Source of the DNA: a virus
DNA length: 25,088 nt
IMG/VR virus record: IMGVR_UViG_3300033182_001279
Coordinates: 1 to 25,088 of that record
Direction: 5' to 3' (one strand)
Shown: in pieces, positions 2,176 through 15,959 of the stretch
Position numbering within the stretch: the first letter of the stretch is position 1
Layout of the letters: each line of letters opens with the position of its first letter
Translations under genes and position numbers: made by a program
Notes under the pieces: model-generated
Told to the model about the DNA's origin: nothing
Databases searched by the model: none
The model's input: only the letters and a program-made list of their open reading frames with translations

Positions 2176-3978
2176 TTATGCCAATACAATCAATCTAAGG
2201 TTTTTACATTTTGGTATTGAAGTTGTTATATCAGACTTCAATACAATCTTGAATACCAAAGATTCAAATGGTTGAAGGTTATCCAACTGCGTTTCAATTT
2301 CAGTAAATTCATCTGTCAATGAAACTGGCATACTGTAAGGCATGCGAACAAACTCTTTTTCAGCAATATCTGTTTCTTCACCAACCAACTTAGTTTTGAA
2401 ATACAATTCAATATTGCTTGAGGTTGGGCGATTTACATCTAATCTCAAATTGATTGAAGTTGATGGATTTTTGAAATCGATTTTACGAGTAATGTACTGT
2501 GCATCGCTTGTTGAACCAGTTGCTGCTCTATCATCAATAAACTTAGTTCCATTGACAATAGTATAACTTGCAGTGTCTGTTACTGTATTAGAACCAGCAA
2601 CATTTTCAATATCAATGGTTGATCCATCATCAGCAACATCAACAACTCTGAATTTACCAGTGTTCAATGCACTTCCACCACTCAATGTCAAATGATTACC
2701 CTTTACAACTAATGTTGCATTACTTTGCGCAGCAGCAGGAACAGCAATTGTACCAAATAATGTATTTGATGTTGATTGTGTAATAGTCAAACTGGTGGCA
2801 CCAACAATTGTAACTTCGTCTTGATCAAGATAATTTTCTGAAGAATAGGTTGGGTTATTGATTTCGTTTTGAATTGCTATAATTCCAAGTTGTTTCAAAT
2901 CAACAACAGGACAAACATATTCATCCGCAGTTTCTAAACTCAAACGGTATGTAAAAGATTCTGCATCAGATAAATTGTTTGTTTTTGTAACATCACCAGC
3001 TAAAATCGCAGGAGCAGAAAGAGTATTATCACCATCATTGATTTTGGTAAACGTAGAATCAATTGAATAATCTGTAGAAGTAGTTTTGATAGATTGATCA
3101 ACAGTTGTTTCTGTGTGTTGGATCTTTGCTAATCCAGAAGAAATAACATCATAACGATAATTTCTTGATGCAAATACAGAAGGTCCACCAAATCTTGTTG
3201 CTTTACTAATTCCGTTTGCTGCATAAGGCAGAGTTATGGTATATGTATGATCTGTTGCGTTAGAAATAACAAAGTTGTTTGCAACAACACTCCCCATAGG
3301 AATTCCATAAAGAGTATTGTACGTTCCATTCATGTCTCGAGAACCTTCAATACCAGTAACTTGGACGTAAGATCCATCTGACATCCCATGATTCTTTTGA
3401 TATACACGCATTGTTGTATTTGCTGGGAAAATTTCTAGCGGATCAGCATTTAGTTTTTGTCTTCCCAATTCGCTATCTGCAAGTTTGAAATCAATATTTA
3501 CAGCACTTCCAGTAGTAAACTTGGCACGATACATGTCAAATTTTAGATCTTCTTTTTCTAAACCTGTCCACTTTTCGCCTTCTTTAGATTTGAATAATAC
3601 ACCAACATAAGGTTGTTCGTTAATTACATTTTCGGTCAAATCATCAACAGCACCAACTTCTGAACAATAGATTTTATAGTTATTTGAAGAAGTGCCTAAA
3701 CAAAGAGAATATTCACCACTTTCCAAATATATTGGTGAATCGAAAGTTACAGTTGATGCAACAGAACCATCACCAACTGTAACATCAGAAGGATAAACAT
3801 ATTTTTGAGAAAAAGGAATTATTACATCACCTGGAAATCCATCTACATTTTTTACAACATGCATGTAAAAAGGCAGTGTTGTATCTTTACCAGAAAAATA
3901 CAAATCAACCTTTGTAATCATACAACTGCGATCAACAATAAATGATTGTGCCAAGTGTTCTAAAATTTTATAAGACAT
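2176..3978 (-). CDS. Large tail/baseplate structural protein
   Basis: 600 residues. The N-terminal third is the diagnostic part: LAQSFIVD at residues 9-16, then ITKVDLYFSGKD, LPFYMHV, GFPGDVIIPFS and PYVGVLFKS, leading to LKFDMYRAKF near 145. This order of elements is common in large marine T4-like tail proteins, usually after the motif DPLAQSF inside a longer polypeptide. Here it stands alone as the N-terminus of its own gene, 14 bp after the 1438-residue DUF4815-type gene. The middle is a run of beta-rich repeats (SLTITQSTSNTLFG, VVKGNHLTLSGG) and the end is a compact domain (residues about 500-600). It is a virion protein; a wedge or baseplate-fibre connector role is inferred from order. 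Confidence 0.75.
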   Translation of the reverse strand: MSYKILEHLAQSFIVDRSCMITKVDLYFSGKDTTLPFYMHVVKNVDGFPGDVIIPFSQKYVYPSDVTVGDGSVASTVTFDSPIYLESGEYSLCLGTSSNNYKIYCSEVGAVDDLTENVINEQPYVGVLFKSKEGEKWTGLEKEDLKFDMYRAKFTTGSAVNIDFKLADSELGRQKLNADPLEIFPANTTMRVYQKNHGMSDGSYVQVTGIEGSRDMNGTYNTLYGIPMGSVVANNFVISNATDHTYTITLPYAANGISKATRFGGPSVFASRNYRYDVISSGLAKIQHTETTVDQSIKTTSTDYSIDSTFTKINDGDNTLSAPAILAGDVTKTNNLSDAESFTYRLSLETADEYVCPVVDLKQLGIIAIQNEINNPTYSSENYLDQDEVTIVGATSLTITQSTSNTLFGTIAVPAAAQSNATLVVKGNHLTLSGGSALNTGKFRVVDVADDGSTIDIENVAGSNTVTDTASYTIVNGTKFIDDRAATGSTSDAQYITRKIDFKNPSTSINLRLDVNRPTSSNIELYFKTKLVGEETDIAEKEFVRMPYSMPVSLTDEFTEIETQLDNLQPFESLVFKIVLKSDITTSIPKCKNLRLIVLA

Positions 3979-3992
3979 TATTAGTTATACCC

Positions 3993-6900
3993 TTAGATTG
4001 GAGATTGTCCAGTTGATGCGAATCCACCACCACTTTTGATATTTGCAGAAACGTCTGCCCAAATACCTGTTGCATTATTTCCATCAGAACCAACAGCAGA
4101 TACTGCTGCAACTGCCATATGCGCTGCAACTGCCGATGTATCATTTCTATCGCCACCTGCTGCTTCAACTGCATCTCTTGATGCTGAGATTGCTGCACTA
4201 TCCGCACCGTGTTGTTCAATTCCAGCATAGATAATATCAACAGTAACCTCATATAAATCTACTGCTGCTTGGGTGTATCCACTACCAACGCTGTAACTAC
4301 CAACATTTGATGGATTGACGCCATCAGATACAGAAACAGCACCAAAATCTATGTTACCACCACCAGCAGTATTTGTCCAATAATCATTACCGCCATCGTC
4401 AACTTCATTACGATCAAATGCCCATGCATACAACCCATCAAGATATCCATATTGAGGTGTTGGTTCTGGATCAGGTGGATCAGGTGGAGGAGAATATGTA
4501 TTCACAGTTCTATTCTCAATTGATGAACTTGATGTGATGACACCATTTCTTGTTGAGATAATTTCATCACGAACAACTCTTGATTCGCCAGTTGCTTCGA
4601 AAAGTGCTTGTCCGTATGTTTCAATATCGTCTTCATCATTAGTTGGAGAATCCGAAACCACAATTGTATGCTGTCCAGTATTCATTCCATGGATACTGGA
4701 AACATATCCAAATATGATAGAAGCGGCACCTGATGCATCAGTATATATTTCTGAAACTCCAGGAGTATCCCAAATATCGGATGGACTATCTTCTCTTGGT
4801 TTACAAGAGCGTGTAACATTTATGTTATCCATAAACACATAAAGTCTTGTTGATGGTTTCATACCTTCAACATCAATCTTGATTTGAACATCACGCATTT
4901 TTGGAATAAACGAAGAACTCAATACAACATCTTCGTTTCTTGTTACATCAATTTGTTCTTCTACTACAAATGTTGTTACATTTCTACTTTGATATAGATC
5001 ATACCCAACTTCTTTATCGGTTTTCCATGAATCATAAACAGTGTTATAGATATTTCCATTATTTTGAGCGACGAATGAATCATAATCGCCATCAACGTTC
5101 TTATAAATTTCTGGTTGCTCAGTATCCTCAAACCAGTTATCAACTGCAGGATCTAGTGTAACTTTACCATTATAAGAAATAACTTCAAATGGATTCAAGT
5201 TATTCGTTTTGGAAGTTCTTTGATTTGAAATGAATTTTTCTTCTGATGCATAATCCATTGTAATCAAATCACCAGTCAAAGCATATCCAGCAGATGTTCT
5301 ATCAACATCAGAATCCAAAACTTCAGCAAGTTTGAATCTATTTGCATTTGCTAAAGGTCTCAATTCAAATCTATTTGGATCAACAGCAACAGAATAGTCG
5401 TTGTTGAATGGATCGCCAATACCATGTCCTTTGAATGCATCTACAACGAATCCGTTTTTGAATCTATCAAACCCTTCATCGTCTTTGATTTGGAAAATTT
5501 CTGCTTGCTTTTCAAGCAAAGAAAGACTTGTATAATACTCAATATTCTTGATTCTTTGATCAAGTTTACTAATGTCTTTCATTGTATAACGACGTGCTTC
5601 TAATGGAATAATATTCACATCATCTTTTATATTGAACACGTATGGTTTTTGCTCTAAAACAAATAATGCAAGAGAATCAGCAGGAGTTTTTGGTTCGATT
5701 CCATTGAACTTACTGACACCTTTGATATACTTTATCTCACCGTATCTATCAAGAACAATCTTATCTTTTCTTGGTAAATAATAATCATATGTTGTGATCA
5801 TATCATTTTCAAAATCAGGCATAGAACCAACACTTGATCCAGTTCCAGTAAATCCAGTTCCAGCGTCATTGATACGTGGACGGAAATCTAAACAGTCTCT
5901 AAGAACATATTCATTATTATTCAAAGTTACTGTTTGAATATCTTTGTAGTCAATATCTGCATATGAGTCAACACTAAAGTAATCGCCAGCACCATGACTA
6001 AAGTAATCAAATGTTACTCTAATTGGACGATTTGGTGGAGTCTCGCCTTTTTTCAAAGAAACAGAACCAATTCCATAGTAAGACTCTGTTTGTCCAGTGT
6101 TCAACGTATATCTATTTGTAATATCAATAGAATTATTTGAATAGAAAGAAGAACCAAAATCCACATTGGCAGACATTTTTACGCTCTTCAGTTTATATAC
6201 GTCTGCTTTACCCAACTTCAATGTAGGAATTGCTGCTGTTGCTTCTGTTGTAAAATCAATTGTTGAATTTGAATTCAATGTTTTGACTTTCTTATCACCA
6301 GCAGTAGATGTTCTTGCAACTGTTGTCATGATATAAACAGTCTCAGAGGTGTATCCATCTCCACTCAAATCAATCGTTACAGTTTTACCTGTTGGTGAAC
6401 CACCACGTGTAACCTTTCCAGACAAATCAATTACATTACCATCGTCAGAACCAGAAGTAATGATCAATGAATAGTTTTCGTCTGAATATGATGAGAACGT
6501 TTCATCAGAACCCGCAGTAAGAGTTACAACACCTGCAGCAAGTGTTTCTGAATGATACTTTCTAACTGAATAAGAGGTGCTTGTTCCATCAGAATCTACT
6601 GTTCTGATTACGTTAGCAGGCATTTTGAAGATATATGATTTTTTATCTTGATCTTCAACTTTTGAAGTAATCAAAGAATAAACAGAACTGGTGGTGTTAC
6701 TTGCAGTTCCATCATGTGCGATTACAAGATTTTGATCATCAGTAATTGTCACAACACGAATACGATCGCCATTTACATCAAGATAATCTGTATTTGCAAG
6801 TTGGGTTGTAAATCGAGTACCAGTACCAACAATAGTATTAGCAACATTATCTACAGTAACAGAACCAGTCAAGAATGTGGTTTGTGGACGAATATCTGCT

Positions 6901-8309
6901 GTAAAATCTTCATAACCAGTGTTGTTGAAGTACACTTGTTTTGCATCATCTGTAAATGAATATCCAGTAGTCATTTGGATGTCAAACAAATACACCTTAT
7001 ATTTTGCTGAAGAAGTTCCAATATCACCACTATAATGTTCAATAGATCTTACACGTGCAGTACCAACTGCAGTTCCTGCAGAACTACCAACGGTTGAGGT
7101 ATATTGATTATAGAAAGTAACTTTCGGCAGATCACCAAGTGGTGGTAAAGAATTTAGATTATCAACAATAATATAATTACCAAATGGAAGAGCAACAGTT
7201 CCTAAAGTGACTGTATCATAGTCTCTTGCTTTGTCTGCATCAACAAAACGGTTGTTGATGTTTATAACCTCATATCCTTTTACATATGCCTTTCCAGGAG
7301 TAATATCACAAACAATCTTGTCAGCATCACCACCATCGTCAGATGAATAGAATCCATTGATGAAGAAAGGAGAATTATTTGCTCTCAAATGCTCATTCAA
7401 TTTGATTCCGTAATTTCTTACAATATAATCACCAGATTCATCATACGTTCTTCTGGCCATAACATCTTGTAAAACGTTATAATCGGTTGCTGCTTTTGTG
7501 CTGATGATTTTTCCGCCTTGGATTCTCGCCAACTCAACAAAGTTTGGATCATCTGTTGCAGCGTCAGTAAAATCTCTTGTTGCTAATGCTAGAGAAATCT
7601 TATAACGATTAGCACCTGGAGCAGCATAGTTATAAGAACCTTGCGCTGGATCAAGCAAAGAAGAATCAGCAATAGAATCTACAGTTTCTTCAGTAATATC
7701 AAAACCAACAATCTTGTCTGTTGTTGCAGTATATTTTGAAATGATCAACGTTTCGTCAGCAAAGTAAACAAAGTTACCTTTTACATAGATAACACCAGAC
7801 TCAACAGAGAATGCTTCACCGTTACCTGTTGCGCTGGTATCAACAACTTGTACTTCTTCTCCACCGCTGGTAGAAAGAATTTCTTCTTCCTCAAATACAT
7901 ATGTTTCACCATCTGAACCAGAATTTGTATATCTAACAAATAAAGTTGGTGGATCAGAATCTTCTGAAATTGTTGCAGCAACAACTTTTGCTGTTACGCC
8001 AGTTGTAGCACCAGTAATTACTTGACCAACCCAATCTTCAATAAGACTATCTGCTGAAACAGAATCATAAGTATCTTCAAGTTTTACAGACTTATAGTTC
8101 TTATCATAAAAGGTTGATCCAGGAACAACAATAGCACCTTCTTTGAAGATATTATTTCCGAACTTTTCGATCTGTTTGTTGATGATGGTTTGCATCTGCG
8201 TAAGTTCTCTGCCTTGCACAGCATAACCTGGACGGAAAAGAATTCTATGGAATCCTTTCGTTTCATCGAAGTCGTCGTAGTATGGATCGGTATTAAAATT
8301 AATTGCCAT
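3993..8309 (-). CDS. Very large DUF4815-type baseplate structural protein
   Basis: 1438 residues. The N-terminus (FNTDPYYDDFDETKGFHRILFRPGYAVQGRELTQMQ, about 5-40) is the signature of the DUF4815 phage protein family, abundant in marine T4-like phages as a virion protein. It continues with KQIEKFGNNIFKEGAIV, an aromatic-rich domain with VNGFYSSDDGGDADK and a long beta-rich body. Near residues 920-950 a helical block (KDISKLDQRIKNIEYYTSLSLLEKQAE) precedes a second conserved part. An acidic proline-rich hinge (PPPDPPDPEPTP) lies at about 1272-1284, followed by a Gly/Ala-rich module of about 155 residues. In related phages the chain appears to continue into the domain that is encoded here by the next gene. 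Role: baseplate wedge periphery, inferred from order and family. Confidence 0.8.
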   Translation of the reverse strand: MAINFNTDPYYDDFDETKGFHRILFRPGYAVQGRELTQMQTIINKQIEKFGNNIFKEGAIVVPGSTFYDKNYKSVKLEDTYDSVSADSLIEDWVGQVITGATTGVTAKVVAATISEDSDPPTLFVRYTNSGSDGETYVFEEEEILSTSGGEEVQVVDTSATGNGEAFSVESGVIYVKGNFVYFADETLIISKYTATTDKIVGFDITEETVDSIADSSLLDPAQGSYNYAAPGANRYKISLALATRDFTDAATDDPNFVELARIQGGKIISTKAATDYNVLQDVMARRTYDESGDYIVRNYGIKLNEHLRANNSPFFINGFYSSDDGGDADKIVCDITPGKAYVKGYEVININNRFVDADKARDYDTVTLGTVALPFGNYIIVDNLNSLPPLGDLPKVTFYNQYTSTVGSSAGTAVGTARVRSIEHYSGDIGTSSAKYKVYLFDIQMTTGYSFTDDAKQVYFNNTGYEDFTADIRPQTTFLTGSVTVDNVANTIVGTGTRFTTQLANTDYLDVNGDRIRVVTITDDQNLVIAHDGTASNTTSSVYSLITSKVEDQDKKSYIFKMPANVIRTVDSDGTSTSYSVRKYHSETLAAGVVTLTAGSDETFSSYSDENYSLIITSGSDDGNVIDLSGKVTRGGSPTGKTVTIDLSGDGYTSETVYIMTTVARTSTAGDKKVKTLNSNSTIDFTTEATAAIPTLKLGKADVYKLKSVKMSANVDFGSSFYSNNSIDITNRYTLNTGQTESYYGIGSVSLKKGETPPNRPIRVTFDYFSHGAGDYFSVDSYADIDYKDIQTVTLNNNEYVLRDCLDFRPRINDAGTGFTGTGSSVGSMPDFENDMITTYDYYLPRKDKIVLDRYGEIKYIKGVSKFNGIEPKTPADSLALFVLEQKPYVFNIKDDVNIIPLEARRYTMKDISKLDQRIKNIEYYTSLSLLEKQAEIFQIKDDEGFDRFKNGFVVDAFKGHGIGDPFNNDYSVAVDPNRFELRPLANANRFKLAEVLDSDVDRTSAGYALTGDLITMDYASEEKFISNQRTSKTNNLNPFEVISYNGKVTLDPAVDNWFEDTEQPEIYKNVDGDYDSFVAQNNGNIYNTVYDSWKTDKEVGYDLYQSRNVTTFVVEEQIDVTRNEDVVLSSSFIPKMRDVQIKIDVEGMKPSTRLYVFMDNINVTRSCKPREDSPSDIWDTPGVSEIYTDASGAASIIFGYVSSIHGMNTGQHTIVVSDSPTNDEDDIETYGQALFEATGESRVVRDEIISTRNGVITSSSSIENRTVNTYSPPPDPPDPEPTPQYGYLDGLYAWAFDRNEVDDGGNDYWTNTAGGGNIDFGAVSVSDGVNPSNVGSYSVGSGYTQAAVDLYEVTVDIIYAGIEQHGADSAAISASRDAVEAAGGDRNDTSAVAAHMAVAAVSAVGSDGNNATGIWADVSANIKSGGGFASTGQSPI

Positions 8310-8319
8310 TTGTTATTCC

Positions 8320-9801
8320 TTAGAAATCTAAGATAATTTTGAAATCTTCAATTTGATCTGGTTCACGCAACACAGGTTGCACGTTTTCAGTATAAAGGAT
8401 CTCACCAGAATATGTATTTGCTTCTGGACCCTTTACTTCAAGAATTGTTCCAATTTCCGTGTCGCTGGTGCTTTTGATAATAACATCATCAACTTGGAAA
8501 GATTTGTAGTTAGCGAAACTATTAACGTTATTTATGTAAACTGAATAGATAGACGTATCAGATTCTGTTTCATCTTCTCTAACATAAACAACACTTGCAT
8601 TAGCAGCACGAATAGCATTTTGTAGTGCATTAGTTGCTAGATCATCACCAAGATCTGTAATAAATCCGATAGAACCTGCTTGAGCATTTTCCAACATTCT
8701 TGTTGTTGTGATACTATCACCAACAGATAATGGATTTACTGGAGTAGATCCATCCATTTGAGTATAAGACATTTTGATTTTAGTCGAAAGTCTTAGAGTA
8801 GTTGGTGAGTTTGATGTATTTGCAATATTCTCTGATACAACAAAACCATTTGTTGAGTTTGCTTTTAGCATCGGATCCTTCATAATTGAGATTGTTCTAA
8901 ACTCAGTATTAGAAGGAACATATCCTGCACCTGATGCAGAAATACCCATATTGTTATCAGTTTGAATATTCAACAATACCTTATCTGCAGATAACTGACG
9001 AATCATATCTGCGCCATGTCCACCAACTGGAGAGAAAATAGCATTTGCCGCAGCACCTGAACCATTTACAGTATTTGCTGTAATATAAAGTTTTCCTTCA
9101 GTATATCTGCTACCTCTGTCAATAATAGTAATGCCGCTGACAGAACCAATATCAGTATTTACAGTTGAATATGCTTTAGCACCAACACCGTCACCAACGA
9201 TAGTAATGGTTGGAGAAATAACAACCTTAGAGTCTGTATTACAAGTTGTTGTAAATGCACTATTTACAGTAAGTGTTCTTGTTGTTCCATTATACCCAAT
9301 GATTCTTCTCAATTGACCAGCACCTGTTCCAGAAGAAACATAAACACTAGATCGAGTATATGAACCATTATCAGTAGATGCACCAGTTGCATCAGAACCT
9401 GACAGCGTAATAGTAAACTTTCCTGCTGAAGTTACCGAACCATTTGCAACATACAAATAATCAGAACCACCAGCATTTACTTCAGCAACCTCAATAGCAC
9501 CATTTACAGATGCGTTCTGTACTGCCAACTGTCTTTCTGACTCAATAGTAGTTCCAGAAGTAACATTACGAACAGGAATATATGTGGTTGTTAGAAACTT
9601 GTTTGCGTCTGCTAAAGAAACAGTAAACATATACTTCCAAATATAACCATCAGATGTAGTAAATGGAAGAGTAGAAAATCCAGTTGGTTTTACAGTAGAA
9701 ACACCACCTTTATTATTATACAAACAGATATAAACATTATTTTCGTCTGTCATTGCATACCATTCTTTTTCATACACATCAGTATCTGTATCACGATACA
9801 T
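8320..9801 (-). CDS. gp8: Baseplate wedge gp8-like protein, C-terminal part
   Basis: 493 residues from the first ATG, but coding-like sequence extends in the same frame for 26 more codons up to the UAA at 9880-9882 (see that entry), so the true start is probably upstream of 9801. The first part (KEWYAMTDENNVYICLYNNKGGVS, TTSDGYIWKYMFTVS) is the conserved gp8-type core in which the protein describes a small 'YICLYN...GG..S...P' strand followed by W-K-Y. The body contains recurring turn motifs (AGGSDYLYV, DRGSRYTEGKLYI, SGAGYVPSNTEF) also found in the upstream 934-residue protein. The end (EPDQIEDFKIILDF) is a typical gp8 C-terminus. gp8 dimers sit in the outer wedge of the T4 baseplate. Confidence 0.75.
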   Translation of the reverse strand: MYRDTDTDVYEKEWYAMTDENNVYICLYNNKGGVSTVKPTGFSTLPFTTSDGYIWKYMFTVSLADANKFLTTTYIPVRNVTSGTTIESERQLAVQNASVNGAIEVAEVNAGGSDYLYVANGSVTSAGKFTITLSGSDATGASTDNGSYTRSSVYVSSGTGAGQLRRIIGYNGTTRTLTVNSAFTTTCNTDSKVVISPTITIVGDGVGAKAYSTVNTDIGSVSGITIIDRGSRYTEGKLYITANTVNGSGAAANAIFSPVGGHGADMIRQLSADKVLLNIQTDNNMGISASGAGYVPSNTEFRTISIMKDPMLKANSTNGFVVSENIANTSNSPTTLRLSTKIKMSYTQMDGSTPVNPLSVGDSITTTRMLENAQAGSIGFITDLGDDLATNALQNAIRAANASVVYVREDETESDTSIYSVYINNVNSFANYKSFQVDDVIIKSTSDTEIGTILEVKGPEANTYSGEILYTENVQPVLREPDQIEDFKIILDF

Positions 9802-9882
9802 TGCATAAGAAGTACCAGAAGTCCAATCATAACGAAGAGTTACATGCGAAACATTATCTGTTGTAATCTTTTTTTTTCCTTA
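9802..9882 (-). other. In-frame UAA inside gp8 merged with an SD-like sequence
   Basis: Between the 71-codon N-terminal gp8 frame and the 493-residue C-terminal frame there is no change of frame: both begin at positions divisible by three. The only interruption is TAA at 9882-9880. The 26 codons after it (GKKKITTDNVSHVTLRYDWTSGT and so on) look like gp8 in the marine T4-like family, where the chain normally runs '...KKIT..DVSHV..R..WTSGT.Y'. The stop is the start of TAAGGA, a strong match to the 16S rRNA tail complement, followed by nine A residues (9877-9869). An AUU codon at 9867 lies 9 nt behind TAAGGA and could be an unusual restart. Readthrough, reinitiation and a real or assembly mutation are all possible. 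Confidence 0.7.
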
Positions 9883-10095
9883 TGCTTCACGGTGAACAGA
9901 GTATCTTAGGTATTGGTCATTGTCGCCTGGAACAACAGGATTTGGTTCATCTTCCCATTCTTCCGCTCTTCCAAGTACAGCATATAAAATGGTTGACAAT
10001 TTTTCAGATGATGTGTCTGATGCGCTAAGTGCCTGAATAAATGCCTTAGCATTATTGATCGATAATTCTCTTGTTGCGTATCTATAAGTTGCCAT
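9880..10095 (-). CDS. gp8: Baseplate wedge gp8-like protein, N-terminal part
   Basis: 71 residues, starting MATYRYATRELSINNAKAFIQ. The block ILYAVLGRAEEWEDEPNPVVPGD (about residues 36-58) is the characteristic N-terminal gp8 pattern of marine T4-like phages: a short amphipathic helix, then a 'Y-x-x-x-G-R/K-x-x-x-W-x-x-E-x-x-P-x-x-P' loop. It is too short to be a complete gp8 (T4 gp8 has 334 residues), and the rest of the protein continues in the same frame after the stop. The ATG overlaps the TAA of the gp7-position gene (TAATG), the same coupling used at several other junctions here, so this is the genuine gp8 start. It may make a free 71-residue peptide if the stop is obeyed. Confidence 0.75.
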   Translation of the reverse strand: MATYRYATRELSINNAKAFIQALSASDTSSEKLSTILYAVLGRAEEWEDEPNPVVPGDNDQYLRYSVHREA

Positions 10096-12899
10096 TATGC
10101 TACCTGATAATAAATGTTTGCGCTGCTGTTAGAACTTGTGTAGTAAATGTTAGCACTACTCAAGTTTGTATTTGCCCATGCAATTTTGGTGTTTGCTATT
10201 GTGTTATTAGACACTATATTTAGCGGAATTGTATAGAAAGATCTTGGAGCATATTCAACAATTATTGAACCACCATTCGCATAGTTGTTGGTGAATTCAG
10301 TTCCTGTTCCTGTAATAGTAAACGATCCGTTAGCGAATGCAATCGAACCATTTGCTTTTGCTCTTTTCTTAGAAGCAGTATAAGTTTGAATATCCAGAGG
10401 GTTTGATGATTCAAGTTTATACTTACCAAATAATCTTTGTCCAGCAGGGTGTACAAGTTTCAATACAACATCACGATATCTGTCAATAGAAATTGGAGAT
10501 TGAACTTCATATGAGAATTCGTGATAGTATCTATTGTCTTGAATATATGCTCTTAATGAAGAAACGTGACTTCTTGTTGATGCATAGTAACCTGCTGAGT
10601 TTGCAACACCTCTTAGTCTTACTGTACCTTGTGCCGCAAATGAATCAGCACCGCTACCCAAACCAAAAGTTACTTCTTCAGTATCTCTATATGAGAAACC
10701 TGAATCCCAAATTCTAAATGATGTGATAGCACCGTTTGCACCAACAGATGCAGAAATATTAGAGTTTTGTCCAATAATGCCTTTGTCTTCAACAGAAACG
10801 ATTGTAGCAGAACCATCATTAGTTTTTGTTCTTGAGTCTGCTTCAGGATTGCCAATAGTATAACCACCAGCAAATGTTTCAAATGTTGATGCACCAGTAG
10901 AATATGTTGCACCAATATTATATTGTTCTTGATCCTGCCAAACACGAACAGAAGTTTCATATGTTCCGTTAGAATATTGTGATACAGAAATAGGAGATCC
11001 TGGTGTTGTACTAGCAACAATATATCCACTTGCGGAACCAGAGTATAATCTATCTGCACTAGAAAGAGTTGTGAAGTTAGAGTTTCCTGTTCCCCAGTTT
11101 TCATCATCACTTTGTAGGGTGACGTAATATTCTTTGATTTCTAATGCTGCAATTTCAGCATCAGTTACTGATACTGTTGGTGCTTCAGTATAACCAGTTC
11201 CACCAATAGGGTCTGTCAAGTTCTGAATGGTTCCAACGCTAACTTGATCAAACAACAAAGCATCGATCAGTGGGGTGTAAATATTTTGAATTGTTGTATT
11301 TGAAGTGTCTGCCAGAGCAGTACCAACAACAGTTGATGTGTCAACTAATCTAATATTTTCTCCGCTAGAGAAAGGAATTAGTGGACCACTATCAAACTGA
11401 GTTGTTAGATTCGCAGTTGTATTTGCTGTAACTCTTAGATATGTGTTAGAAGCAGCAGAAGCAGCAATACTTTTCACAACAGCAAAAGAACCAGAAGTAA
11501 CACCAACCAACTCATCACCAACAGAAATATCCTGAGTGTTGGCAATATTCAATACATGAAAACCGACAGTATTTGACGAGAAAGAAGTTACTGTTCCAAC
11601 ATTAGATCCTGTTGGAGTTGTAATCAAAACAGACTCAGCAGAATCAAAGTTCTTATACCCATTGATTTTTAGAACTGCGTTATTTGCACTTCCACCAATA
11701 ACCTCAACAACTGTTCCATTTGCTCCTGATGTTTCTCCGAATAAATCTGAACCATTAGCAATAGCAACTGTTGAGTTTGCGATCACAAGAACTGCACCAA
11801 CATTATCGTGAAACTTTTTACCAGCACTCTCATCAGTGGTATCTGGGAATCCATACATAACACTACTCAAAATAGTGTTAGCAAAAGTTTCCATTTGTCT
11901 TGAGATGCCATCAGAATTTACGATTGATGGTGCATAAGTTGAACCAAACTCTGTTACATCGCTAATCTTATTGAAAGCAAGGTACATTGTAACAGAATTG
12001 TACAAGTCAGATTCTTCAATACTAAAACTTGCACCTGTTCCATCACTACCAGATAATGTGATTGTTGATCCAGGACTAACTGTTGATGCTCTATAACCAG
12101 AACCACCATCATTCAATGAGAATGTCAATGTTCCGTTCAAGTCAACTGTTTCGGTTACAGCAACTCTTGCAAAATCACCGATCTCATCAGACGTAACTGT
12201 TACAATATCACCAATGTTATATCCACCACCTGCTGCAGTAATAGAAATAGAATCTATACCAGCATTGATAATTGGAGTGTGTCCAGTTCCTAATGTATCT
12301 GTTTGGAGTTTGATTGGTTCAAGATCGTAAAACCTTCCAACAACATTAGAAACAAGGATTTGCATAATCTCAACGCCACGAATTGTGCGTCGAACTACAT
12401 CTTCAACCAGCGCAGAAGCACCAGAGTCGGCACCAACAATAGTTTTTCCAATAAAGTTATATGTGCTTGGTTCATATCTTCCAACCAAATAACGATCGAT
12501 TCTCCAGTCACCATCAGAAACCTTTAGGATATTATCTGCTGGAAGTTTTACATCAATATCTTCACCATAAATTGCACGGAAAAGAAGTTTATATGAAGCG
12601 ATTGTACCACGTGATTGGTTTGCTGTCTTTGCAAGTTTGATAAACATTTTCTTGTCTGCAACCATATCGACTGGCACAGAAGGCAAGAAGGTGTTCATGA
12701 AATATTTGATATATTCATCAGTTGTTGTACTGATATCCCTATAAGATTCTAGATTACGAATCCCATCGGTGAGGTTTCCGTTTTCTTCCATCCAAGCATA
12801 GTATGCCTCAACGAAAGCAAGAAAGTTCTCACCTTCTTCTTTGTAAAAACTTGGAAACTGATTTTGAACCAGTTTTGAAATTTTTTCAGTAACTGCCAT
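10095..12899 (-). CDS. Large baseplate wedge protein in the gp7 position
   Basis: 934 residues, between gp6 and gp8 exactly where T4 has gp7 (1032 residues). The N-terminal 150 residues are the conserved part: KLVQNQFPSFYKEEGENFLAFVEAYYAWMEENG, then DISTTTDEYIKYFMNTFLPSVP, SRGTIASYKLLFRAIYGEDI and GDWRIDRYLVG. The body is a long beta-rich series with at least four 'Gly-Gly-x-Gly-Tyr' turns (AAGGGYNIGDIVTV, DGGSGYRASTV, IGGTGYTEAPTV, DSGFSYRDTEEVTF), then a segment near 770-820 (LRAYIQDNRYYHEFSYEVQSP) that I recall as typical of this family. Start and stop both overlap neighbours by one base (TAATG). The assignment as gp7 is by position and size; sequence identity with T4 gp7 was not established. 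Confidence 0.75.
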   Translation of the reverse strand: MAVTEKISKLVQNQFPSFYKEEGENFLAFVEAYYAWMEENGNLTDGIRNLESYRDISTTTDEYIKYFMNTFLPSVPVDMVADKKMFIKLAKTANQSRGTIASYKLLFRAIYGEDIDVKLPADNILKVSDGDWRIDRYLVGRYEPSTYNFIGKTIVGADSGASALVEDVVRRTIRGVEIMQILVSNVVGRFYDLEPIKLQTDTLGTGHTPIINAGIDSISITAAGGGYNIGDIVTVTSDEIGDFARVAVTETVDLNGTLTFSLNDGGSGYRASTVSPGSTITLSGSDGTGASFSIEESDLYNSVTMYLAFNKISDVTEFGSTYAPSIVNSDGISRQMETFANTILSSVMYGFPDTTDESAGKKFHDNVGAVLVIANSTVAIANGSDLFGETSGANGTVVEVIGGSANNAVLKINGYKNFDSAESVLITTPTGSNVGTVTSFSSNTVGFHVLNIANTQDISVGDELVGVTSGSFAVVKSIAASAASNTYLRVTANTTANLTTQFDSGPLIPFSSGENIRLVDTSTVVGTALADTSNTTIQNIYTPLIDALLFDQVSVGTIQNLTDPIGGTGYTEAPTVSVTDAEIAALEIKEYYVTLQSDDENWGTGNSNFTTLSSADRLYSGSASGYIVASTTPGSPISVSQYSNGTYETSVRVWQDQEQYNIGATYSTGASTFETFAGGYTIGNPEADSRTKTNDGSATIVSVEDKGIIGQNSNISASVGANGAITSFRIWDSGFSYRDTEEVTFGLGSGADSFAAQGTVRLRGVANSAGYYASTRSHVSSLRAYIQDNRYYHEFSYEVQSPISIDRYRDVVLKLVHPAGQRLFGKYKLESSNPLDIQTYTASKKRAKANGSIAFANGSFTITGTGTEFTNNYANGGSIIVEYAPRSFYTIPLNIVSNNTIANTKIAWANTNLSSANIYYTSSNSSANIYYQVA

Positions 12900-14665
12900 T
12901 ATTCGTACTCAGGGATTGCAGTAATAATTGCGTCTTCAGGATCAATAATAAGAATCTGTTCTCTCAAAGGAATCAAATCAAAACGATCAGGAGTTGCAGT
13001 AAGTTTCATTTCAGTATCAACAAAATCTGTTGGAGTAAATGAATTGAAGATAACTTGTCCAGTTTCATAATCAACCGTGCCTGCCGTTGAATTGACAATA
13101 ATCTTTTCTTTATCAGTGTTGAAACGATATGCTCTAACAACACCCAATCCATCATCATCCATATAACAAGTAAATCCAGAATATGTAAATGCTGTGGTAG
13201 AAATACTTTCTGGTTTCAACTTATTATTGAAGTTGAATGTGATCGTTTGCGCAGTTCCTAATGTTGGAGTAAATCTCTTTTGCACTTGAACAGAAGCATC
13301 AGTGTTTAGAATATTTGTGCTTGATGTATTATCAAGTTCTCTAACAAAACGAGAGAAACGAAAACGATTACCAAACCTTTCAAGTTTGTTTGTTGAATAC
13401 AACTCAACACCATCTTTGATTGCAGTTTGAACTTCAGCAATACTAGCAGTTGATGTGGTTGCATTATAATATGCTTTGATTGTTGGAATAATGTAGGTAT
13501 AAACTGGATCAATAATCACTGGGTCAATACCAAGAGGACTACGATCTAAAATTGAAGTTCTCAACTTATCTTTTCTATTTTGAGTTGCAATAAGTTCGCC
13601 ATATGGTTTTACACCAATATAAACTTTACCATAGATTGCTGGAACTGCTTCTTCACCACCAAACGCAACAACCGATTCAATATCTGCATTCTCAGTTAGA
13701 ATAATTCTCTCATAATCATTAGCAATAATTGCTCTGTTTTGTGTTTGATAACTTCTTGGTGCGTTAAACTTGATGGAAGAAATACTTTCTGCACCACGTC
13801 CACCAGTAGAGTTGGTATTCGTTGTTACAGATGCTGAGGTATAATCAACACCAATGTTTATAGAGTCTGCAGAGAATGTGCTTGCTCCATTTGTTGCATC
13901 ACCATTACAAACCAAATATTCTACAGATACAATATTTCCGTTGATAACTTTTTGTCCTAAAGCACCTTGACTAAACACAATTTCATATTTACCATCAGAT
14001 GCTTCATCAAGGAAGTAAACTTTAGAGTTAGAATAGATTTGAACTATGTCTGTTGCACGTGTAAACTCATGTATTTCTGTATCAACAGATGAGTTTTGAA
14101 CTTTTACAACAAGACTTGAAGTGTCTACATTTGCGTTAGGAATAATGTATCTTTCAGGATTAGAAGAACTTACAGTCCAACGGTGAGTCAAAGGTTCACC
14201 TTCTCTAATCTCAATTGCTCTTGAGAAAGCACCATCAGTTCTATTTACAACATATGCTTCTGGTGTGACATAAGTGTACGTTACATCATCAAGTGTTGTG
14301 CTAAAGGTTGAGTTTCTTGGAATAGTGAACGAGGTTGTTCCAGACTCAACACCAGTAAATGTGATTTGAACGTTGGCAGTTGAACCAATAGCAGAAGTTG
14401 GAGTATAACCCAATTCCTTAGCACGTGATACAACTGATTCTCTTTGTTGTGCAGTATCCAAAAACATTTCATTGGCAAGCATATTCAGATAGTATGCGTT
14501 ATAATGAGTATTATAAGCAAGAACATCAAGAAGAACTGACATTGCAGAACCTTCAAAGTTATAATCTCTGAATTGATCTTGGGTGCTTAGATATGTTTTT
14601 AGATTTGTACGAATATCTTCGAAATCTAAATCTGTAACTTTTAGGTATGTATTTGCTGTTGCCAT
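12899..14665 (-). CDS. gp6: Baseplate wedge subunit gp6 (J-like)
   Basis: 588 residues. The N-terminal region (DFEDIRTNLKTYLSTQDQFRDYNFEGSAMSVLLDVLAYNTHYNAYYLNMLANEMFLDTA, about 14-72) is the recognisable gp6 signature of T4-like phages, followed by QRESVVSRAKELGYTP. A central conserved block (INIGVDYTSASVTTNTNSTGGRGAESISSIKFNAPRSYQTQNRAIIANDYERI, roughly 270-320) is the baseplate J core shared with P2 gpJ and other contractile systems. gp6 forms the inner iris of the baseplate with gp7 and gp53 and controls its change of shape. The length is close to T4 gp6 (660). Overlaps of one base with gp25 and with the next gene indicate coupled translation. Confidence 0.93.
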   Translation of the reverse strand: MATANTYLKVTDLDFEDIRTNLKTYLSTQDQFRDYNFEGSAMSVLLDVLAYNTHYNAYYLNMLANEMFLDTAQQRESVVSRAKELGYTPTSAIGSTANVQITFTGVESGTTSFTIPRNSTFSTTLDDVTYTYVTPEAYVVNRTDGAFSRAIEIREGEPLTHRWTVSSSNPERYIIPNANVDTSSLVVKVQNSSVDTEIHEFTRATDIVQIYSNSKVYFLDEASDGKYEIVFSQGALGQKVINGNIVSVEYLVCNGDATNGASTFSADSINIGVDYTSASVTTNTNSTGGRGAESISSIKFNAPRSYQTQNRAIIANDYERIILTENADIESVVAFGGEEAVPAIYGKVYIGVKPYGELIATQNRKDKLRTSILDRSPLGIDPVIIDPVYTYIIPTIKAYYNATTSTASIAEVQTAIKDGVELYSTNKLERFGNRFRFSRFVRELDNTSSTNILNTDASVQVQKRFTPTLGTAQTITFNFNNKLKPESISTTAFTYSGFTCYMDDDGLGVVRAYRFNTDKEKIIVNSTAGTVDYETGQVIFNSFTPTDFVDTEMKLTATPDRFDLIPLREQILIIDPEDAIITAIPEYE

Positions 14666-15086: not shown

Positions 15087-15094
15087 TATTTATA
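15087..15094 (-). promoter_or_regulatory. T4-type late promoter for the gp25-gp6 operon
   Basis: Minus-strand TATAAATA, a perfect match to the T4 late -10 octamer recognised by gp55 with gp33 and the sliding clamp. It ends 26 bp before the gp25 ATG, leaving room for a leader of about 20 nt that is A-rich and has only a weak AAGAAAG ribosome site. The gp5 stop codon TAA (15092-15090) lies inside the octamer, so the end of one gene is the promoter of the next block. Confidence 0.75.
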
Positions 15095-15959
15095 CCTTAT
15101 TTGGGGGAGAAGTATCAGTTCCCCCACCAAAATGATTACCTGAGTTTTGTGGGTGAGTGTGGTTCACTAAAGAAACACCGTCCACATAAACATCACCATT
15201 TGGTGCAGTCGCATAGAGAGTATTTCCAACAGTAACTGTAGCATTATCACCAACAGTTACTGTTGCGTCATTATCAACAACTATGTTCACGTTTCCTTTG
15301 ACATGTATGGCATCATCACCAGCGACGACTCGATATCCATCCTTGACAACGTGTGTAACAATGCTACCATCAGGGTGTACTTCATAAAAAGTACCTGATT
15401 TGTGCATTTCTCTAATTCGCTCATGAGAAGGCGTATCGTCATACTCCTTAGTATGACCCGACTCAGTCTCCATAACATGATTCTTTGGATATTCTGCTGC
15501 GTATGGATCATCAGGTTCTCCTATGGTTGAATCAGGTGTATGAGGTTTTGTTTGCAAACCTCGTGCAAGTTTGTTCACGTCAGGATCGTCAACCCACTTT
15601 GGATATGTTCCAGTTGGATCGTTGAACCCTTTTGTTGGATCAGCAACTTGTGATGGAATTCCTGGAAGTGTTCCCATAATAACTGGTTCTTGTGCACGTT
15701 CACCATCCATAAAGAAACCAATAACCCATGAACCTTCAACAATACCAGTAGGAGAAAAACCCAAACCATTCACAGAAGCAGATTGGACACCATTCATTAC
15801 TTGTGCCCAAGGCAAGTCTTCAGTTTTTATTTTAGACTTATCATCTGTGTGGTGTCCAAAGACACGCACACGCAAACGACCCAGTTGAACTGGATCGTCT
15901 CTATCTTCAACTACACCAACGAACCATATAAATCCGTTTCTGCCAATAAAGTTACGCAT
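15090..15959 (-). CDS. gp5: Baseplate hub spike gp5 (OB-fold, no lysozyme domain)
   Basis: 289 residues. The N-terminal OB-fold is clear: GFIWFVGVVEDRDDPVQLGRLRVRVFGHHTDD at about 10-40, LPWAQVMNGVQ, GIVEGSWVIGFFMDGERAQEPVIMGTLPGI at 72-102. The T4 lysozyme domain that normally follows is absent. Instead a short linker leads to HPDGSIVTHVVKDGYRVVAGDDAIHVKGNVNI and a beta-helix-like repeat (ATVTVGDNATVTVGN). Near the C-terminus HTH (residues 267-269, in VNHTHPQ) resembles the iron-binding HxH of P2 gpV-type spike tips. It should pierce the outer membrane when the tail contracts. Neighbours are the hub protein and gp25. Loss of the lysozyme module is common in marine relatives, so another enzyme may open peptidoglycan. 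Confidence 0.9.
   Translation of the reverse strand: MRNFIGRNGFIWFVGVVEDRDDPVQLGRLRVRVFGHHTDDKSKIKTEDLPWAQVMNGVQSASVNGLGFSPTGIVEGSWVIGFFMDGERAQEPVIMGTLPGIPSQVADPTKGFNDPTGTYPKWVDDPDVNKLARGLQTKPHTPDSTIGEPDDPYAAEYPKNHVMETESGHTKEYDDTPSHERIREMHKSGTFYEVHPDGSIVTHVVKDGYRVVAGDDAIHVKGNVNIVVDNDATVTVGDNATVTVGNTLYATAPNGDVYVDGVSLVNHTHPQNSGNHFGGGTDTSPPNKV

Follow-up and report, generated by a model that had tools for sequence, protein, structure and literature searches.

The window studied here is the entire 25,088-base record of an uncultured T4-like phage and includes the baseplate operon, and its gene for the baseplate wedge protein gp8 is interrupted by an in-frame TAA. Most likely this is an ordinary gp8 gene with a lone stop codon that its relatives do not share, and it is probably not a new way of making a protein. 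For the stop itself we favour, at somewhat better than even chance, a consensus or assembly error over a real nonsense mutation. The gp8 gene lies on the minus strand; it starts at 10095 and runs for 71 codons up to the TAA at 9882-9880 (ORF 10095..9880). Past this codon the frame goes on without a stop from 9879 to 8323, which makes 519 codons, before the gene's own TAA at 8322-8320, and the next ATG in this frame is at 9801. The relevant features are the following:

12899..14665, minus strand: gp6-like baseplate wedge gene, 588 aa (phrog_219, E 1.1e-157)
10095..12899, minus strand: gp7-like baseplate wedge gene, 934 aa, whose stop overlaps the gp8 ATG
9883..10095, minus strand: N-terminal part of gp8, 71 codons (phrog_438 positions 6-58, E 2.2e-5; 73% identical to the related contig L001)
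9880..9882, minus strand: the internal in-frame TAA of gp8; 137/137 other contigs covering the site have a sense codon here
9877..9882, minus strand: TAAGGA, a Shine-Dalgarno-like (SD-like) string made of the TAA and a Gly codon that is common in the family (94/138 records)
9869..9877, minus strand: nine-A run, encoding lysines after the Gly, one of which (column 74) is found in no relative
9802..9879, minus strand: the 26 post-stop codons, without ATG, GTG or TTG, which belong to gp8 in relatives
8320..9879, minus strand: C-terminal part of gp8, 519 codons and its own TAA (phrog_438 positions 67-478 of 478, E 7e-75; Pfam Phage-Gp8 PF09215 at the C end, E 3.6e-7)

The two parts make up one gene. 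The phrog_438 profile (baseplate wedge subunit), used as the test for a T4-type gp8, is matched over 6-58 and then over 67-478 of its 478 positions, so nothing has been lost between them, and the frame continuity together with the homology of both parts is far beyond chance. The original prediction had placed them in one frame and one gene, and the ORFs and profile matches bear this out with the same coordinates. The gene also follows gp6 and gp7, as a T4-type gp8 should. T4 gp8 (PDB 1N7Z; phrog_438/PF09215) is itself found by the family profile (E 8.5e-16), and the likeness extends to the profile match, the predicted fold of L001 and the order gp6-gp7-gp8. The T4 protein differs in having 334 residues against approximately 590 in the window and its relatives, and only the window has an in-frame TAA. 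Because this TAA stands in the consensus, the gene is not a single uninterrupted frame, which lowers the claim to an intact working gp8; its assignment to gp8 at the gene level rests on the other grounds, and apart from the stop the gene, one and in one frame, is without defect.

For the test of the fold, the intact relative L001 (71% identical) stood in for the window protein. The predicted model had a mean pLDDT of 89.8 and matched T4 gp8 1N7Z in Foldseek with E 1.9e-9 and probability 1.00. In this model the stop comes where helix 61-71 passes into strand 72-78, within a block of mean pLDDT >90, and the TAA would thus cut the helix end and the strand of gp8 in a well-ordered part of the protein.

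Two neighbouring genes also depart from their profiles. The phrog_358 baseplate gene (2056 positions) appears on the minus strand as two ORFs in different frames, 3993-8309 and 2176-3978, of 1438 aa (profile 4-1239) and 600 aa (1424-1621), with TAAGGG and ATG between them; the same regions lie in a single ORF of 1940-1995 aa in L001, L002, L003, L004, L008 and L027, and the split is either a gene fission or a frameshift. The gp5-like hub gene (15090-15959, minus strand) has only 289 aa and aligns in two separate stretches with a "hub and tail lysozyme" profile of 868 positions; it may be without a lysozyme domain.

A scan of viral contigs for gp8 relatives yielded, besides the window, 140 distinct contigs after removal of repeats; left out of the counts were nine loci repeating counted contigs (L045, L072-L077, L100, L101) and L028, which is the window itself. 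A complete, unbroken gp8 is present in 125 of them, including the closest relatives of the window, whereas 13 run off the end of the contig, L025 is rearranged and L105 is frameshifted (121-1760, with parts in three frames that are probably contig errors and that give a base rate for broken baseplate genes). The stop column is covered by all but three contigs (L025, L027, L133), and none of the 137 readable relatives has a stop there. At this position they encode I (98), V (12), F (11), L (5), Y (4), E (3), M (3) and Q (1), although the E, Q and L of the distant loci L005 and L009-L012, which align poorly at this point, are probably misplaced in column 72. Over the 519-residue part, the closest relatives L001 and L002 (71%) and L003 (65%) all read straight through the site. 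The same holds for two isolates, Sinorhizobium phage phiM7 and Caulobacter phage Cr30, whose gp8 is homologous over that part (29.6% and 28.3%, respectively): in each, one uninterrupted CDS contains the N-terminal part and the 26 codons, with sense codons at the site. Since relatives and isolates alike read through, the interruption is confined to a single record among those examined. The alignment also shows that in relatives the 26 codons after the stop belong to gp8, so the finding that the original prediction had named as refuting it, homologues with these codons outside gp8, does not occur. An intron or insertion at the stop is ruled out by the gap-free alignment of relatives across it.

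A second copy from the same population was not encountered: viral contigs held no exact match to a 23-mer, a pattern search of genome contigs returned 21 matches, none of them a relative, and the 501-base region had no DNA match in phages. With the N-terminal 71 residues alone, tblastn against phages found nothing at E 0.01, which is a failure of sensitivity, because the isolates do carry this segment.

Selection on the gene looks quite ordinary. Against L001, dN/dS is 0.17 for the N-terminal part, 0.19 for the C-terminal part, 0.17 for gp6 and 0.26 for gp7, with dS of 1.2-1.5, near saturation, which makes these ratios rough. With L003 as the outgroup, window-only to L001-only changes number 6:4 and 53:37 in the two gp8 parts, 63:38 in gp6 and 90:109 in gp7. 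Twenty residues of the window gp8 occur in none of 74 close homologs, for which the single-homolog counts are 0-35, with an outlier of 132 in L107. Judged from these comparisons, both gp8 parts are under ordinary purifying selection and the gene has not decayed; the dN/dS values, relative rate and unique-residue counts rule out an old pseudogene. The stop is thus either very young, not real or harmless.

In a rival reading the phage bypasses the stop, with termination at the TAA followed by restart at an AUU 9 nt past the GGA, or with readthrough, giving two chains or a low level of the protein. We consider such a functional split improbable, and we give even less credit to its more specific form, in which a single lineage would make gp8 as two non-covalent chains (UAAGGA stop, AUU restart) or by UAA readthrough set to a low level, with the downstream part kept under purifying selection. 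The idea has some attractions. TAAGGA is a usable SD site, a passage of PMC2268962 describes more coupled re-initiation in E. coli where an SD site is present, the downstream part is indeed under purifying selection, and at two true junctions of the window (minus strand, 8322-8317 and 18148-18143) the upstream TAA lies within the TAAGGA site of the next gene. Those junctions, however, use an AUG, 7 nt past the GGA, whereas the 26 codons after the gp8 stop hold no usual in-frame start (ATG, GTG or TTG) and offer AUU only; the first AUG past the TAA stands in another frame, which closes after four codons. The site resembles the coupled termination-reinitiation sites of E. coli and phage operons in joining TAA to an SD-like GGA, but it differs from them in lacking a near AUG, GUG or UUG, in lying inside one conserved protein and in not being conserved.

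The string itself had been described as TAAGGA followed by nine A, with ATT 9 nt past the GGA. The distance to the ATT is right, but the sequence reads TAAGG and then nine A, so that only eight A and then one G come after TAAGGA. The window has no excess of TAAGGA (6 observed, 11.5 expected), and, as GGA makes up 214 of its 636 Gly codons, a TAA ahead of a Gly codon gives TAAGGA about once in three by itself. The string at the gp8 stop is therefore nearly a by-product of a TAA placed ahead of the family's common Gly codon.

Other features expected of a bypass also fail to appear. RNA folding at the stop gave ordinary z values (-0.73, 0.93 and -0.33, in a test outside which pseudoknots fall), there was no Rfam match, and the window, which is only part of the genome, has no tRNA gene. 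A restart at the AUU would lose most of strand 72-78 of the L001 model. Moreover, the passages of PMC3004832 on the T4 tail describe a strictly ordered wedge assembly that halts at a missing product, 12 copies of gp8 per tail and a role of gp8 in helping gp6 to fold. For these reasons a weak bypass would hardly serve, since 12 copies are above the supply expected from weak readthrough, and by analogy the window phage would need gp8 as T4 does. The coupled restart or readthrough that the original prediction had offered is thus not supported, with a stop shared by 0/137 relatives, no usual start in the 26 codons, ordinary folding and an SD-like string that is close to a by-product. A programmed readthrough or restart device is unlikely, receiving no support from a shared stop, RNA structure, a tRNA gene, TAA recoding or a near start codon.

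Two shifts of frame were considered as well. Slippage on the A run could not bypass the stop because the run lies past it, and paired opposite shifts around the stop, judged by eye only, would alter the common Gly or the hydrophobic residue. That the phage might read TAA as an amino acid would fit one in-frame TAA within an essential gene, but we give this reading practically no credence. TAA ends 20/24 ORF pieces (19/23 without the N-terminal gp8 piece), many of them directly at the start of the next gene, so that avoidance of TAA at gene ends is absent. These junctions contradict a changed genetic code, which had already been discounted as an explanation of the stop.

We are left with the two explanations that had been named as the main alternative, a simple nonsense mutation or a consensus error, and together they fit best a stop that is unshared, in an undecayed gene without features of a device. 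If the consensus is at fault, the record would hold an ordinary T4-type gp8 in which a single codon is false or unrepresentative, both the stop and the unusual adjoining A run would have arisen from error or unresolved strain variation in the assembly of a metagenomic contig, and in the phage itself gp8 would be one unbroken chain of approximately 590 residues. The absence of the TAA from all 137 relatives, the complete gp8 of 125 of the 140 contigs, the dN/dS values close to those of gp6 and gp7, and the need for gp8 in T4 wedge assembly all argue for this explanation. Moreover, the stop lies two bases from the nine-A run, which is the sole homopolymer of at least 8 A/T (or at least 6 G/C) in the window; related loci hold 4 A/T runs of at least 8 in 1.03 Mb. 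Substitution errors toward the base of the run directly after homopolymers are known for Illumina, as a passage of PMC8002175 describes, but this published pattern hits the base adjoining the run, and the stop begins two bases further. Two codons from the stop stands the column-74 lysine, which is found in 0/137 relatives covering it (A 71, G 33, L 15, M 6, I 4, S 3, V 2, gap 3). It is one of the 20 window-only residues of gp8 and ranks only 20th in deviance, so it is weak evidence for an error. Against an error there is also the fact that most other sequence of the window reads cleanly, and that random read errors are normally outvoted in a consensus.

A real, recent nonsense mutation is possible but less probable in our opinion. 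The variant would be defective or a minority one, propagated with the help of intact phages in the same cell or of a suppressor tRNA in the host. The sense codon in the closest relatives and the intact remainder of the gene, under purifying selection, are what would be expected of a very young change; gp8 is otherwise broken in 2/140 other contigs (L025 rearranged, L105 frameshifted), which gives such damage a base rate; and amber mutants of T4 baseplate genes, used in complementation assays as a passage of PMC3004832 relates, show that phages with such mutations can persist where complementation is provided. A consensus contig should, however, reflect the majority genome, in which a nonsense allele of an essential virion gene should be rare, and no near-identical contig was found, the best relatives being 71% identical in protein and the 23-mer having 0 exact matches.

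Two cautions follow from this case. An SD-like string beside an in-frame stop can arise simply from the conserved Gly codon that follows it, and a single such stop in a metagenomic contig says little in favour of recoding. If the TAA were nevertheless real and bypassed, gp8 of this phage would be one of the rare virion proteins that are essential and stoichiometric and yet translated across a UAA.
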